Shown piece after piece: positions 24,523-28,038 of a stretch of 53,139 nucleotides of DNA. The translations under genes were made by a program, and so were the position numbers. The stretch lies in the NCBI GenBank assembly GCA_018266475.1, contig JAFEAI010000096.1, forward strand, positions 1 to 53,139, written 5' to 3'. The notes below the pieces were generated by a model. The model was not told where the DNA came from and ran no database searches. It saw only the letters and a program-made list of their open reading frames with translations. The stretch comes from Bacteroidota bacterium. GTDB taxonomy: Bacteria > Bacteroidota > Bacteroidia > Flavobacteriales_F > PHOS-HE28. The stretch's first letter is position 1, and each line of letters begins with the position of its first letter.

Positions 24523-24530
24523 TATTTTTG
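24523..24530 (+). promoter_or_regulatory. -7 box TATTTTTG upstream of the ECF sigma gene
   Basis: Exact TAnnTTTG match with a TTG 15 bp upstream, shorter than the usual spacing. It could give basal housekeeping-sigma transcription in addition to the ECF promoter downstream. Confidence 0.4.
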
Positions 24531-24577: not shown

Positions 24578-24603
24578 TGTAACTTTCGGAGCGCGTCCGC
24601 GTC
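24578..24603 (+). promoter_or_regulatory. ECF-type promoter TGTAAC-N16-CGTC
   Basis: TGTAAC (24578-24583) and CGTC (24600-24603) are 16 bp apart, and a start site would fall about 15 nt before the sigma gene's GTG. The same pair of elements recurs before the two genes after the operon, implying autoregulation. Confidence 0.6.
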
Positions 24604-24624
24604 ACACCTGCAACACCACCCCGC

Positions 24625-25110
24625 GTGACCCTCCACGAATACAACTGCGCCGTAGACCAGCATGCCGACGGCATCTACCGGTTCGCGGTGAAGCACCTGC
24701 GCGACCTGGACACCGCCAAGGACGTGGTGCAGGAGAGCTTTGCGCGGCTGTGGCAGAAGCTGGACGACGTGGACGGCGGCAAGGTAAAAAGCTACCTCTT
24801 CACCACTGCGCACCACCTGCTGGTGGACACCGCCAGGCGCGATACGCGAAGCACCCGCATGGAGGAGCGCCACGAGGACCTGCGCTGGGGCACGCAATCG
24901 CAACCCGATCTGAAGGAAGTGCTTGATGCCGCCCTGGCCACCTTGCCGGAAGTGCAACGCAGCGTGGTACTGTTGCGCGACCTGGAGGGGTACAGCTATG
25001 AGGAGATCGCGGAACTGGCGGGGCTGAACGTCACGCAGGTGAAAGTGTACATCTACCGCGGCCGCACCGCCTTGAAGGAATACATCGGCAGCTTGGAGAA
25101 CGTGCTATGA
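24625..25110 (+). CDS. ECF-family RNA polymerase sigma factor (161 aa)
   Basis: Sigma region 2 (about 10-75) reads DGIYRFAVKHLRDLDTAKDVVQES, then FARLWQKLDD and FTTAHHLLVDTARRD. Region 4 (about 105-155) has LPEVQRSVVLLRDLEGYSYEEIAELAGLN with a helix-turn-helix continuing VTQVKVYIYRGRTALKEYI. The length is typical of ECF factors. The start is a GTG. The next gene begins inside its stop codon and looks like a membrane-bound anti-sigma partner. A TGTAAC/CGTC promoter directly upstream suggests the factor drives its own gene. Confidence 0.92.
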   Translation: MTLHEYNCAVDQHADGIYRFAVKHLRDLDTAKDVVQESFARLWQKLDDVDGGKVKSYLFTTAHHLLVDTARRDTRSTRMEERHEDLRWGTQSQPDLKEVLDAALATLPEVQRSVVLLRDLEGYSYEEIAELAGLNVTQVKVYIYRGRTALKEYIGSLENVL

Positions 25111-26423
25111 AGCTGGACCGCACCACATACGAAGCTTGGCTGCTGGACCGCGCCGAAGGCAACTTGGGTCCGGACCAGGATCGGATGCTTGATGCGTTTC
25201 TCCACGCACACCCGGACCTTGCCGTTGCCCAAGAACCACTGCCGCGCGTAACCGCAGGAACTGAACCTTTCCCCAGCAAGGAATCCTTGTTGCATGCCTT
25301 TCCCCCTTCCGGCGCACCCACCGCTGCACGGCTGAACGACTTTCTCGCCGCACGGCTGGAAGGCGATCTTTCACCGGAACAGGAACAGCAACTTGACCAA
25401 TACCTGTATGAGCACCCTGAAGCGGCCATGGATGCAGCGGCCATGGCCAGGGCCAAAGCGATCGCGGCGCGCGTGGCATACGGCGCGAAGGCCGGCCTGG
25501 AACGGCATTTCCCCCCGGGAGGCATGCCGGATGCGCAGCACCTTGGCGATTTCCTCATTGCCGATGCGGAAGGCGACCTGACCGGGGAACAACGGGTAGC
25601 GTTGCGCCTGTATGTGCATGAGCATCCTGCGGCACAGCGTGAACAACGGCTTGTTTTGGCCTCCCGCATCCAACCTGCACCGCTGCGCTTTCCCTGGAAA
25701 CAGGAATTGAAAAAGCGCGAAGCCCGCGTGCTTCCCCTGTGGACCCGCTGGGCGGCGGCGGCCAGCATCATGCTGCTGATGGGCATGGGCTGGTGGATCA
25801 TCCGCAGCGACGGGCAACCCATTGCCGGCAATGCGACGGTGGCAGGCGGCACGGTGCCCCCCGCCCCTGCCGCCCAAACCGCATCGGCCTACGCGCAGCC
25901 CCTTCAGCAGCCTGGGGCAGCCGCAAGCACTGCGCACCAGGCGGTGCGGCGGGCCGCTGCGGCCCGCAACCGCAGCATGCACCAGGCGCCGGCAGCCGCA
26001 TGCAACAAGCCCGAGCCGGGGATGCCGCCACATGAAGCGCCCATGCCGGACCCCGTCCTGCCTGATCCAGCACCGGCACCCGGCAAGGCCGCAACATTGC
26101 TGGCCGAGGCTTCACCAAGGGAACAGGCGGCCCCGCAGGCACAGGGTGCCTCCGGCGAGAAGGGCGGAACCGCCACGACCGCGGCCTCCGGCGGCCAGGA
26201 CATAGGCGTGTACGTAGCCAACAAGCTGCGCGGTGATGTGCTGGAATCCCCGCAACGCCCCACCGGCCTTGATGTCCACGACATGGTGGCCGTGGCGGAC
26301 CGGGCGATCGCGGCCGTAAGCAGCGGCCAAGGTGGTGTGCAGGTGCAGCGCTCCGCCACCCGCGAGCGGATCCGGCTCAGCTTGGGCCGGAACTTTTCCA
26401 TCAGCGCGAGCCGTGCCCGCTGA
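25107..26423 (+). CDS. Putative anti-sigma membrane protein with three repeats (438 aa)
   Basis: Overlaps the sigma gene by 4 bp. The N-terminal 215 residues hold three related helical units: YEAWLLDRAEGNLGPDQ (about 8-24), LNDFLAARLEGDLSPEQ and LGDFLIADAEGDLTGEQ. Each is followed by a LxxFLxxHP-type helix. They resemble anti-sigma domains but lack the zinc-binding His/Cys. One membrane segment follows (about 210-230, ASIMLLMGMGWWII). The outer part is Ala/Pro/Gln-rich low complexity and ends in a small charged domain. Position and topology suggest it holds the sigma factor at the inner membrane; this is inferred, not a clear family hit. Confidence 0.65.
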   Translation: MKLDRTTYEAWLLDRAEGNLGPDQDRMLDAFLHAHPDLAVAQEPLPRVTAGTEPFPSKESLLHAFPPSGAPTAARLNDFLAARLEGDLSPEQEQQLDQYLYEHPEAAMDAAAMARAKAIAARVAYGAKAGLERHFPPGGMPDAQHLGDFLIADAEGDLTGEQRVALRLYVHEHPAAQREQRLVLASRIQPAPLRFPWKQELKKREARVLPLWTRWAAAASIMLLMGMGWWIIRSDGQPIAGNATVAGGTVPPAPAAQTASAYAQPLQQPGAAASTAHQAVRRAAAARNRSMHQAPAAACNKPEPGMPPHEAPMPDPVLPDPAPAPGKAATLLAEASPREQAAPQAQGASGEKGGTATTAASGGQDIGVYVANKLRGDVLESPQRPTGLDVHDMVAVADRAIAAVSSGQGGVQVQRSATRERIRLSLGRNFSISASRAR

Positions 26424-26473
26424 AGACCGTTCGCCAAGTCTGCCTTCCGTCCATCACAAGCCTGCCACTGGCG

Positions 26474-26500
26474 TGTAACTACTCCGGCCTCACCGGTGTC
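26474..26500 (+). promoter_or_regulatory. ECF-type promoter TGTAAC-N17-TGTC
   Basis: TGTAAC at 26474-26479 and TGTC at 26497-26500, one base wider and one base off relative to the sigma gene's promoter. It would start transcription around 26508, which excludes the ATG at 26503 and favours the start at 26536. Confidence 0.5.
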
Positions 26501-26535
26501 CTATGCCCAACAACCGGCAACCGGCCACAAACACC

Positions 26536-26922
26536 ATGACGATGAAAACCGCACATCTCTCCTTCGCACTTACCCTGGGCGCCCTCATGCACTTCGCTCC
26601 ATCCCGCGCCAGCACTGACGCGCCCGCAACGGTCCCCTTCACCAACCATGCCCTGGAACGCGCCGTGATGCACCAGGTCAACCGCCACGTGATCTTTCCG
26701 CTGCAGGCTGCGGAAGGCGACATGTACGGCGTGGTGGACGTGTCCTTTGCCGTGGACGTGCAGGGCCGCCTGGTGGTGAAGGAGGCCCGCTCCGAAAACC
26801 AGGCGCTGCGCGACTATGTGGTCCGCAAATTGGGCAAGGTGCAGGTGGGCGCAAACCCCTCCGGCCTGTGGAGCACCACGCACCTGCGCTTCATCTTCAA
26901 GCCTGAGCGAAAGGACCTGTAA
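26536..26922 (+). CDS. Small secreted protein, TonB-C-like (128 aa)
   Basis: The start at MTMKTAHLSFALTLGALM gives a signal peptide; an ATG 33 nt upstream would precede the predicted transcription start. The mature protein has the plan of a TonB C-terminal-like beta-alpha-beta unit: NRHVIFPLQAAEGDMYGVVD, VSFAVDVQGRLVVKEARSE, then a LRDYVVRKLGKVQV helix and a final strand THLRFIFKP. Such proteins in Bacteroidota are periplasmic with no defined activity. The ECF promoter in front places it in the sigma factor's likely regulon. Confidence 0.65.
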   Translation: MTMKTAHLSFALTLGALMHFAPSRASTDAPATVPFTNHALERAVMHQVNRHVIFPLQAAEGDMYGVVDVSFAVDVQGRLVVKEARSENQALRDYVVRKLGKVQVGANPSGLWSTTHLRFIFKPERKDL

Positions 26923-26943
26923 CTATTCCCCACCGGGGCCGTC
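26918..26943 (+). promoter_or_regulatory. ECF-type promoter TGTAAC-N16-CGTC
   Basis: Same hexamer, spacing and -10 as the promoter of the sigma gene. The TGTAAC overlaps the stop codon of the preceding gene. A start site near 26950 would exclude the ATG at 26946 and favour the one at 26967. Confidence 0.6.
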
Positions 26944-26966
26944 CCATGTTCAAATATCACCGCGCC

Positions 26967-27956
26967 ATGCGAATGCTTGCCTTCACCCCCTTGCTGCTTC
27001 TGCCCTGCCTTGCATCCGCCCAGCGGGACAGCACGGCCGCGGACAGCGCAAAGGTCCGCCCGAAACAGCACGCCATAGTGGTAAGCGCCGGAAACGGCGG
27101 GCTGCGGATGGACGTGGAACGCACGGACACACTGAAGGTACACCAGGGCGACACGGTGCGCATCAACACGCGGCGCAAGACCATCCGCATCATCACCACG
27201 CTGCGCAACGGCGCGGACAGCGTGGAATCCTTCCCCGACCGCTTGGCCAGCTTGAAGCGCCAGCGGCGCAACCTGTTCACTTACTGGGCCGGCCTGGAGC
27301 TGGGGGTAAACACCTTCATCGCACCCGACGGCCGCATCGGCGACGGGCCGCAAAGCGGGCCCCTGCAGCTGAACAACTCCAAGAGCCGCTTCCTTGCCAT
27401 CAACTTCATGGAGCGGAAAGTGGAGTTCGGCACCCACCACATCGGCCTGCTCACCGGGCTGGGCATCGAATTCCTGAACTACAAGCTGAGCGAGAACGCA
27501 ACGCTCGCCTACAACAGCGACAGCACCTACGCGGTGCCCATGGACCTGCCCGTGCTGAGCAAGAACAAGCTGCGGCAGATCGGGCTGCGGGTGCCGCTGA
27601 TGCTGGAGTTCAACACGGCGCGCGCCAAGCTGCCGGCGGATGCGCAGGAACTGCACGCCAAACCCGATTGGTCGTTCAGCCGCAAGAACAACTTCCATTT
27701 GGCGGCCGGGGTGGTGGGCAGCTGGTACTTCGACACCATGTACAAGCAGAAGTGGACTGCGGGCGGCCATGCCGAAAAGCAGCGAGACAAAGGCGGCTAC
27801 AACCTGCTGCCCTACCGGTTGGCGGCCCGCGCCCAGCTTGGCTTCGGCAGCGTGAACCTCTTTGCCGAATATGCGCTCACGCCCATGTTCGAGGAAGGGA
27901 CGGCACCGGACCTGCGGGCCTTGAACGTGGGCCTAACGCTGGTGGGCTTCAATTGA
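26967..27956 (+). CDS. Outer-membrane beta-barrel protein (329 aa)
   Basis: Using the ATG of MRMLAFTPLLLLPCLASAQ leaves a compact signal peptide and agrees with the ECF promoter position; an ATG seven codons upstream is possible. After a charged N-terminal stretch, the mature part shows alternating amphipathic strands: TYWAGLELGVNTF, IGLLTGLGIEFLNYKL, IGLRVPLMLEF, FHLAAGVVGSWYF, ARAQLGFGSVNLFAEYALTP and the final LRALNVGLTLVGFN ending in an aromatic-Asn. It resembles PorT/OmpA-like barrels of Bacteroidota. It probably contributes to an envelope-stress output of the neighbouring ECF factor. Confidence 0.7.
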   Translation: MRMLAFTPLLLLPCLASAQRDSTAADSAKVRPKQHAIVVSAGNGGLRMDVERTDTLKVHQGDTVRINTRRKTIRIITTLRNGADSVESFPDRLASLKRQRRNLFTYWAGLELGVNTFIAPDGRIGDGPQSGPLQLNNSKSRFLAINFMERKVEFGTHHIGLLTGLGIEFLNYKLSENATLAYNSDSTYAVPMDLPVLSKNKLRQIGLRVPLMLEFNTARAKLPADAQELHAKPDWSFSRKNNFHLAAGVVGSWYFDTMYKQKWTAGGHAEKQRDKGGYNLLPYRLAARAQLGFGSVNLFAEYALTPMFEEGTAPDLRALNVGLTLVGFN

Positions 27957-28001: not shown

Positions 28002-28030
28002 AGGGCCGCCGCGCTTGCGGCGGCCCTTTG
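28002..28030 (+). terminator. Hairpin terminator before the YebC-type gene
   Basis: The 11-bp perfect stem AGGGCCGCCGC pairs with GCGGCGGCCCT around a GCTT loop, followed by only TT. The stem is strong and the T tract short. Confidence 0.6.
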
Positions 28031-28038
28031 TACTTTCG
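28031..28038 (+). promoter_or_regulatory. -7 box TACTTTCG
   Basis: TAnnTTCG variant followed by CGGCCC, as before lepA, metG and dnaG. It lies 50 nt before the ATG. Confidence 0.45.

Follow-up and report, generated by a model that had tools for sequence, protein, structure and literature searches.

The window, i.e. the whole stretch of 53,139 nt that was analysed, comes from an uncultured Flavobacteriales bacterium and encodes an ECF sigma factor at positions 24625-25110 (+ strand). This sigma factor very probably activates its own gene and two envelope genes, with very few targets besides. The explanation that we favour, and consider highly likely as a whole, is that this sigma factor reads three promoters, which drive its own operon, a gene for a secreted TonB-C-like protein and a gene for an outer-membrane beta-barrel protein. 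That it reads these sites, activates transcription from them and is autoregulated is, taken jointly, more likely still in our view. Judged by pattern searches, its recognisable regulon in its own genome is these three promoters.

The promoter motif and its conservation

Three sites of the same two-block form were located on the + strand. Promoter 1 (24578-24606; TGTAAC-N16-CGTCACA, core 24578-24603) precedes the sigma gene and has a predicted start site at about 24609-24612. Promoter 2 (26474-26503; TGTAAC-N17-TGTCCTA, core 26474-26500) precedes the TonB-C-like gene, with a predicted start site at about 26506-26509, and promoter 3 (26918-26946; TGTAAC-N16-CGTCCCA, core 26918-26943) precedes the barrel gene, with a predicted start site at about 26949-26952. 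The -35 element is TGTAAC, followed by TTT at the sigma gene. The -10 element is YGTC-N-Y-A, at a distance of 16 nt from the -35 element, or 17 nt at the TonB-C-like gene.

The pattern TGTAAC-N16/17-(C/T)GTC matched the window exactly three times against 0.18 expected, a number that was reached in 0 of 100 shuffles. Genome-wide counts were obtained by pattern searches of the source genome (3.57 Mb, 97.9% complete), in which this loose pattern gave seven matches versus 52 for the reversed pattern. With the -10 element extended to YGTCNYA, three matches remained, all in the window, and the reversed pattern gave one. When the first T of the -35 element was dropped (GTAAC-N16/17-YGTCNYA), there were still only three, versus 14 for the reversed pattern. 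We also built a weight matrix from 77 congeneric training sites, with the window excluded. It scored the three sites at 29.8, 28.2 and 26.7, while the next-best place in the 53 kb scored 10.9 and the peaks in five shuffles ranged from 9 to 18; its training sites were picked by a regular expression, and these scores are a ranking aid rather than an independent discovery. Our literature search found no description of the TGTAAC-N16/17-YGTC motif.

Of 34 congeneric genomes, nearly all had an orthologue of the sigma gene. The exact motif preceded the sigma gene at 29 of the 32 genus loci (the other three had one mismatch in the -35 element), the TonB-C-like gene at 24 of 28 (the other four had one mismatch) and the barrel gene at 28 of 28. 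Those non-exact sites that were inspected carried a single change, either AGTAAC or CGTAAC, or GGTC in the -10 element. Within the genus the spacing was gene-specific, with N17 in all 24 exact TonB-C-like sites and N16 in 27 of the 28 barrel sites; the spacer sequences themselves had diverged and showed no conservation. The motif also stayed with genes that had moved. In one relative (G025, one main contig) the TonB-C-like/barrel pair lies 120 kb from the sigma gene, and in two others (G002 and G018) it is divergent relative to the sigma gene; the motif was retained in all three, in G025 at both genes. The sigma, TonB-C-like and barrel genes co-occurred in 18 of 20 genomes searched, and one of the 20 (82% complete) lacked all three.

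A scan of 80 loci, from Flavobacteriales and Bacteroidales MAGs, Carboxylicivirga linearis, Prolixibacteraceae and others, extended this pattern across the phylum; in the culturable C. linearis (L230), the sigma gene carries the motif. Upstream sequence was available for 79 of these loci, and 75 of them had TGTAAC within 150 nt upstream of the sigma start, typically at 39-69 nt. Outside the genus, a fuller but looser site occurred before the sigma gene in 66 of 67 cases (1.4 expected) and before the barrel gene in 29 of 37 (1.7 expected). Several of the site-less barrel genes (L184, L185, L187, L223, L244 and L218) begin no more than about 20 nt from the end of the anti-sigma gene and probably belong to the anti-sigma operon. 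The sigma/anti-sigma/barrel module is present in many Bacteroidota families, and the promoter code TGTAAC-N16/17-YGTCNYA makes regulons callable from sequence in uncultured species.

An initial annotation of this DNA had described TGTAAC -35 elements at the three units, two of them with N16 and CGTC, and these were confirmed at the positions given above. It had proposed a genome scan for the motif, which yielded the seven loose and three strict matches, the latter all at these genes. It had also stated that a motif just as frequent inside genes as upstream of them would refute the reading; this was not what we found. Its central claim, a single ECF promoter common to three consecutive units, is supported by genome specificity, by footprinting in the genus and the phylum, and by the motif following moved genes. 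Beyond it, our analysis adds the NYA extension of the -10 element, the gene-specific spacing, the anatomy of the anti-sigma factor and a clade-specific fourth target.

Chance resemblance combined with shared ancestry of neighbouring DNA has a negligible probability. It could draw on the third site, whose -35 hexamer contains the TAA stop codon of the TonB-C-like gene, here and in four near relatives. Elsewhere, however, the barrel-gene site lies tens to hundreds of nt beyond this stop codon (tens in most congeners), so that promoter 3 is not explained by coding. Moreover, so few matches were expected in the window, and about 30 genomes keep the sites although their spacers have diverged; the comparative counts refute this reading. 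Also very improbable is a reading in which the element is no promoter at all, but an operator for a transcription factor or a dispersed repeat. Only the two-block form speaks for that, whereas the spacing of 16-17 nt, the AAC in the -35 element, the CGT in the -10 element and the location tens of nt before start codons fit an ECF promoter, the spacers are unconserved, and strict copies occur nowhere else in the genome.

The sites might, alternatively, be real ECF promoters served by another ECF sigma factor of the cell, or by several, with the neighbouring sigma factor only a target or partner. The source genome contains about 11 ECF-like sigma genes. In three relatives another ECF gene has a similar site (N17-TGTCCCA or N17-CGTCCCA) immediately upstream (G004:C4:12528, G032:C93:12987 and G011:C179:2022), and paralogous ECF sigma factors may share promoter logic. 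Furthermore, the CGT-type promoters of Flavobacterium psychrophilum may serve several ECF sigma factors (PMC9723704), and one relative (G016) has the TonB-C-like/barrel pair and the motif with no sigma match, on a contig that stops about 1.4 kb upstream. We nevertheless consider this reading improbable. The motif precedes this sigma factor's own gene in nearly every relative, and the genome has no further strict site, which leaves the other ECF genes without one. For these two reasons the sites are best attributed to the sigma factor of 24625-25110.

The sigma gene and the two envelope genes

The sigma protein (161 aa, GTG start) matched Pfam Sigma70_r2 and r4_2 over the cut-off. It contains regions 2 and 4 only, and its length falls within the range of about 160-200 aa of ECF (group 4) sigma factors; its profile matches in the PDB were ECF sigma factors. 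The nearest NCBIfam model was NF058625 (sigma_PG0214), at 106-109 bits and below its 130-bit cut-off. An invariant Met-Thr in 12 aligned orthologues backs the GTG start. At the sequence level, promoter 1 has the features of an autoregulated ECF promoter, i.e. AAC in the -35 element, CGT in the -10 element, a spacing of 16-17 nt, a position before the sigma factor's own gene, and conservation. Upstream of the sigma gene, the Bacteroidota TAnnTTTG (-7) box is matched by TATTTTTG at 24523-24530. This candidate for a housekeeping promoter was rejected; no exact match to it was found before the sigma sites of relatives.

The TonB-C-like gene (26536-26922, +) encodes a secreted protein of 128 aa with a signal peptide, starting at ATG 26536 or 26542, downstream of the predicted start site and in agreement with the orthologues. 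It scored 13.1 bits against TonB_C (PF03544) and its orthologues 14.7-19.1 bits, and the gathering cut-off of 24.6 was not reached; 'TonB-C-like' remains a resemblance only. The gene is duplicated in tandem in some congeners (L049, L051 and L052).

The barrel gene (26967-27956, +) starts at ATG 26967 or 26973 and encodes an outer-membrane beta-barrel protein of 329 aa with a signal peptide. Its AF2 model (mean pLDDT 83) consists of N-terminal periplasmic strands and eight long strands forming an 8-stranded barrel, a fold that resembles the PDB structures of Ail, OmpA and OmpW. A sequence search of the PDB with this protein found nothing, and there was no match to OMP_b-brl_2 (PF13568) at E 0.001; its homologues in L071 and L072 scored above the gathering cut-off of that family. 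In other families, a barrel with an N-terminal DUF2807 head GIN domain occurs (L071:3159-4565). A likely intrinsic terminator, read from the sequence as GGGCCGCCGC-gctt-GCGGCGGCCC-TTT, follows the barrel gene at 28005-28032 (+).

Both envelope genes are preceded by an earlier ATG, at 26503 and 26946, respectively. Each of them starts 3 bases beyond the -10 tetranucleotide and is made up of the YAT of the -10 element plus a G, which yields a spurious start codon at 26498-26505 and 26941-26948. Because of this position they lie upstream of the predicted start site, which falls 6-9 nt beyond the -10 element. In every orthologue whose start can be read, a signal peptide opens at a later ATG (+18 to +48); the early ATGs are often missing from the orthologues. 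The initial annotation had set aside the upstream ATGs in favour of those opening a signal peptide; this choice holds, as the -10 element supplies part of each early ATG and the orthologues concur. Gene callers that use the first ATG would mis-annotate both genes, and the motif accounts for such wrong start codons.

The anti-sigma factor and related systems

The probable anti-sigma gene (25107-26423, +; 438 aa) shares a 4-nt overlap with the sigma stop, and its product was studied with an AF2 model, a conservation profile and an HMM of its helical unit. The model has three helical units resembling anti-sigma domains (about residues 6-39, 74-108 and 145-179, high confidence), one transmembrane helix (213-234), a disordered, Ala/Pro-rich tether of about 125 residues (240-364) and a conserved C-terminal domain of alpha-alpha-beta-beta-beta topology (366-437). 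Identity within the genus was high in the units and in the C-terminal block, and 0.24-0.33 in the tether. Of 29 genus proteins, 27 have three copies of the helical unit; in other families two copies predominate. The top two structural matches of unit 3 were RsiW (Z 5.1, rmsd 2.9 over 67 residues) and RslA (Z 4.5, rmsd 3.4 over 52 residues); these scores are modest, and for an anti-sigma fold of the unit they are suggestive, not decisive. The anti-sigma protein had no Pfam match over the cut-off, no credible match in the PDB by sequence and no Foldseek match at E 0.001.

SigW-RsiW and SigL-RslA are classical pairs of an ECF sigma factor and a class I anti-sigma factor, in which the sigma factor has regions 2 and 4 and the promoter a CGT in its -10 element. 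The window system shares the two sigma regions and the CGT, and its helical unit 3 matches RsiW and RslA. To our knowledge, however, RsiW and RslA are without the three tandem units, the tether and the C-terminal domain that are all present in the window anti-sigma.

The Dma/Das systems of Bacteroides (Dma1/Das1, Dma2/Das2 and EcfO-Reo) combine dual membrane-spanning anti-sigma factors with ECF21 sigma factors, and das2 is upregulated in a dma2 deletion, i.e. the sigma operon is induced once the anti-sigma factor is removed (PMC13088901, PMC13114119). EcfO-Reo is proposed to span all compartments and to sense outer-membrane stress (PMC13114119). Like these systems, the window encodes a Bacteroidota ECF sigma factor next to an anti-sigma factor with a cytoplasmic N-terminal anti-sigma domain (here with modest structural matches), one transmembrane helix and a long disordered tether in the periplasm. 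In Dma, however, the anti-sigma polypeptide itself forms the barrel at its C-terminus, whereas in the window the barrel is encoded separately, behind a sigma promoter of its own, and the anti-sigma factor has three helical units and a small, conserved alpha/beta domain at its end. As modelled, the window anti-sigma is not a Dma, because the barrel lies outside its polypeptide. The module resembles Dma and EcfO-Reo with the barrel split off. What is new is the combination of an anti-sigma factor that has three tandem units, a transmembrane helix, a variable tether and a conserved C-terminal domain with a barrel encoded by a separate, probably sigma-dependent gene. A 555-aa anti-sigma factor of one relative (L075:4868-6532, - strand) is fused to a C-terminal PorP/SprF barrel and is Dma-like, with a T9SS-type barrel.

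Two further Bacteroidota systems are related. In Porphyromonas gingivalis, PG0214 and PG0215, a sigma factor and its putative anti-sigma factor encoded in one ECF operon, are upregulated together under H2O2 (PMC10101095). PG0214 (NF058625) represents the nearest curated sigma family to the window sigma, at 109 bits, yet under the 130-bit cut-off. Unlike in the window, the genes downstream of PG0214-PG0215 include one for a DUF4252 protein, and no TonB-like/barrel pair is named (PMC10101095). The SM6 promoters of Flavobacterium psychrophilum are an ECF class with CGT in the -10 element, which includes one sigma/anti-sigma operon and T9SS genes (PMC9723704). The window promoters are likewise of a Bacteroidota ECF type with a CGT -10 element, but SM6 serves a wider set, including T9SS genes, than the three promoters found here.

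Proposed switch and a possible fourth target

At rest, the anti-sigma factor in the inner membrane would hold the sigma factor via its cytoplasmic helical units, while the periplasmic tether would carry the conserved C-terminal domain towards the outer membrane. There, this domain would most likely dock to the separately encoded barrel, perhaps together with the TonB-C-like protein. The sigma factor would be set free by a change in the outer membrane and would then transcribe its own operon with the anti-sigma gene, the TonB-C-like gene and the barrel gene, and newly made anti-sigma factor and barrel would return the switch to rest. Docking to the barrel is suggested by the anatomy of the tether, by co-regulation, by gene association and by the fused relatives (Bacteroides Dma, EcfO-Reo and L075). 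The combination of docking and outer-membrane sensing falls, by our estimate, slightly short of an even chance. Somewhat more tentative is the idea that a split Dma exists Bacteroidota-wide, in which the C-terminal domain of a tethered anti-sigma factor would read a separate barrel induced by the same sigma factor, the barrel being both sensor and product. If docking is true, it points to a way in which the fused five-compartment Dma/EcfO-Reo sensors may have evolved, and it offers two simple proteins for testing outer-membrane sensing.

A link to copper was considered and rejected. A gene for a CopZ-like chaperone has a loose match (G000:C194:10187) 55 nt upstream, but the -10 element of this match is not conserved in G004 and G002, which have only TGTAAC followed by a TTTG box.

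A gene for a lipoprotein with an HMA-like domain was looked for in the source genome and not found, and in the nearest relatives of that genome it has no ECF site. In 12 of the congeners that have the gene (L123, L124, L125, L132, L139, L146 and L148-L153), this lipoprotein, with the motif MSCEMMC (GMSCEMMCGGAIKKAL), has the same ECF promoter tens of nt upstream, mostly with N17. As a possible target it gives at most a hint of metal or thiol chemistry in the signal.
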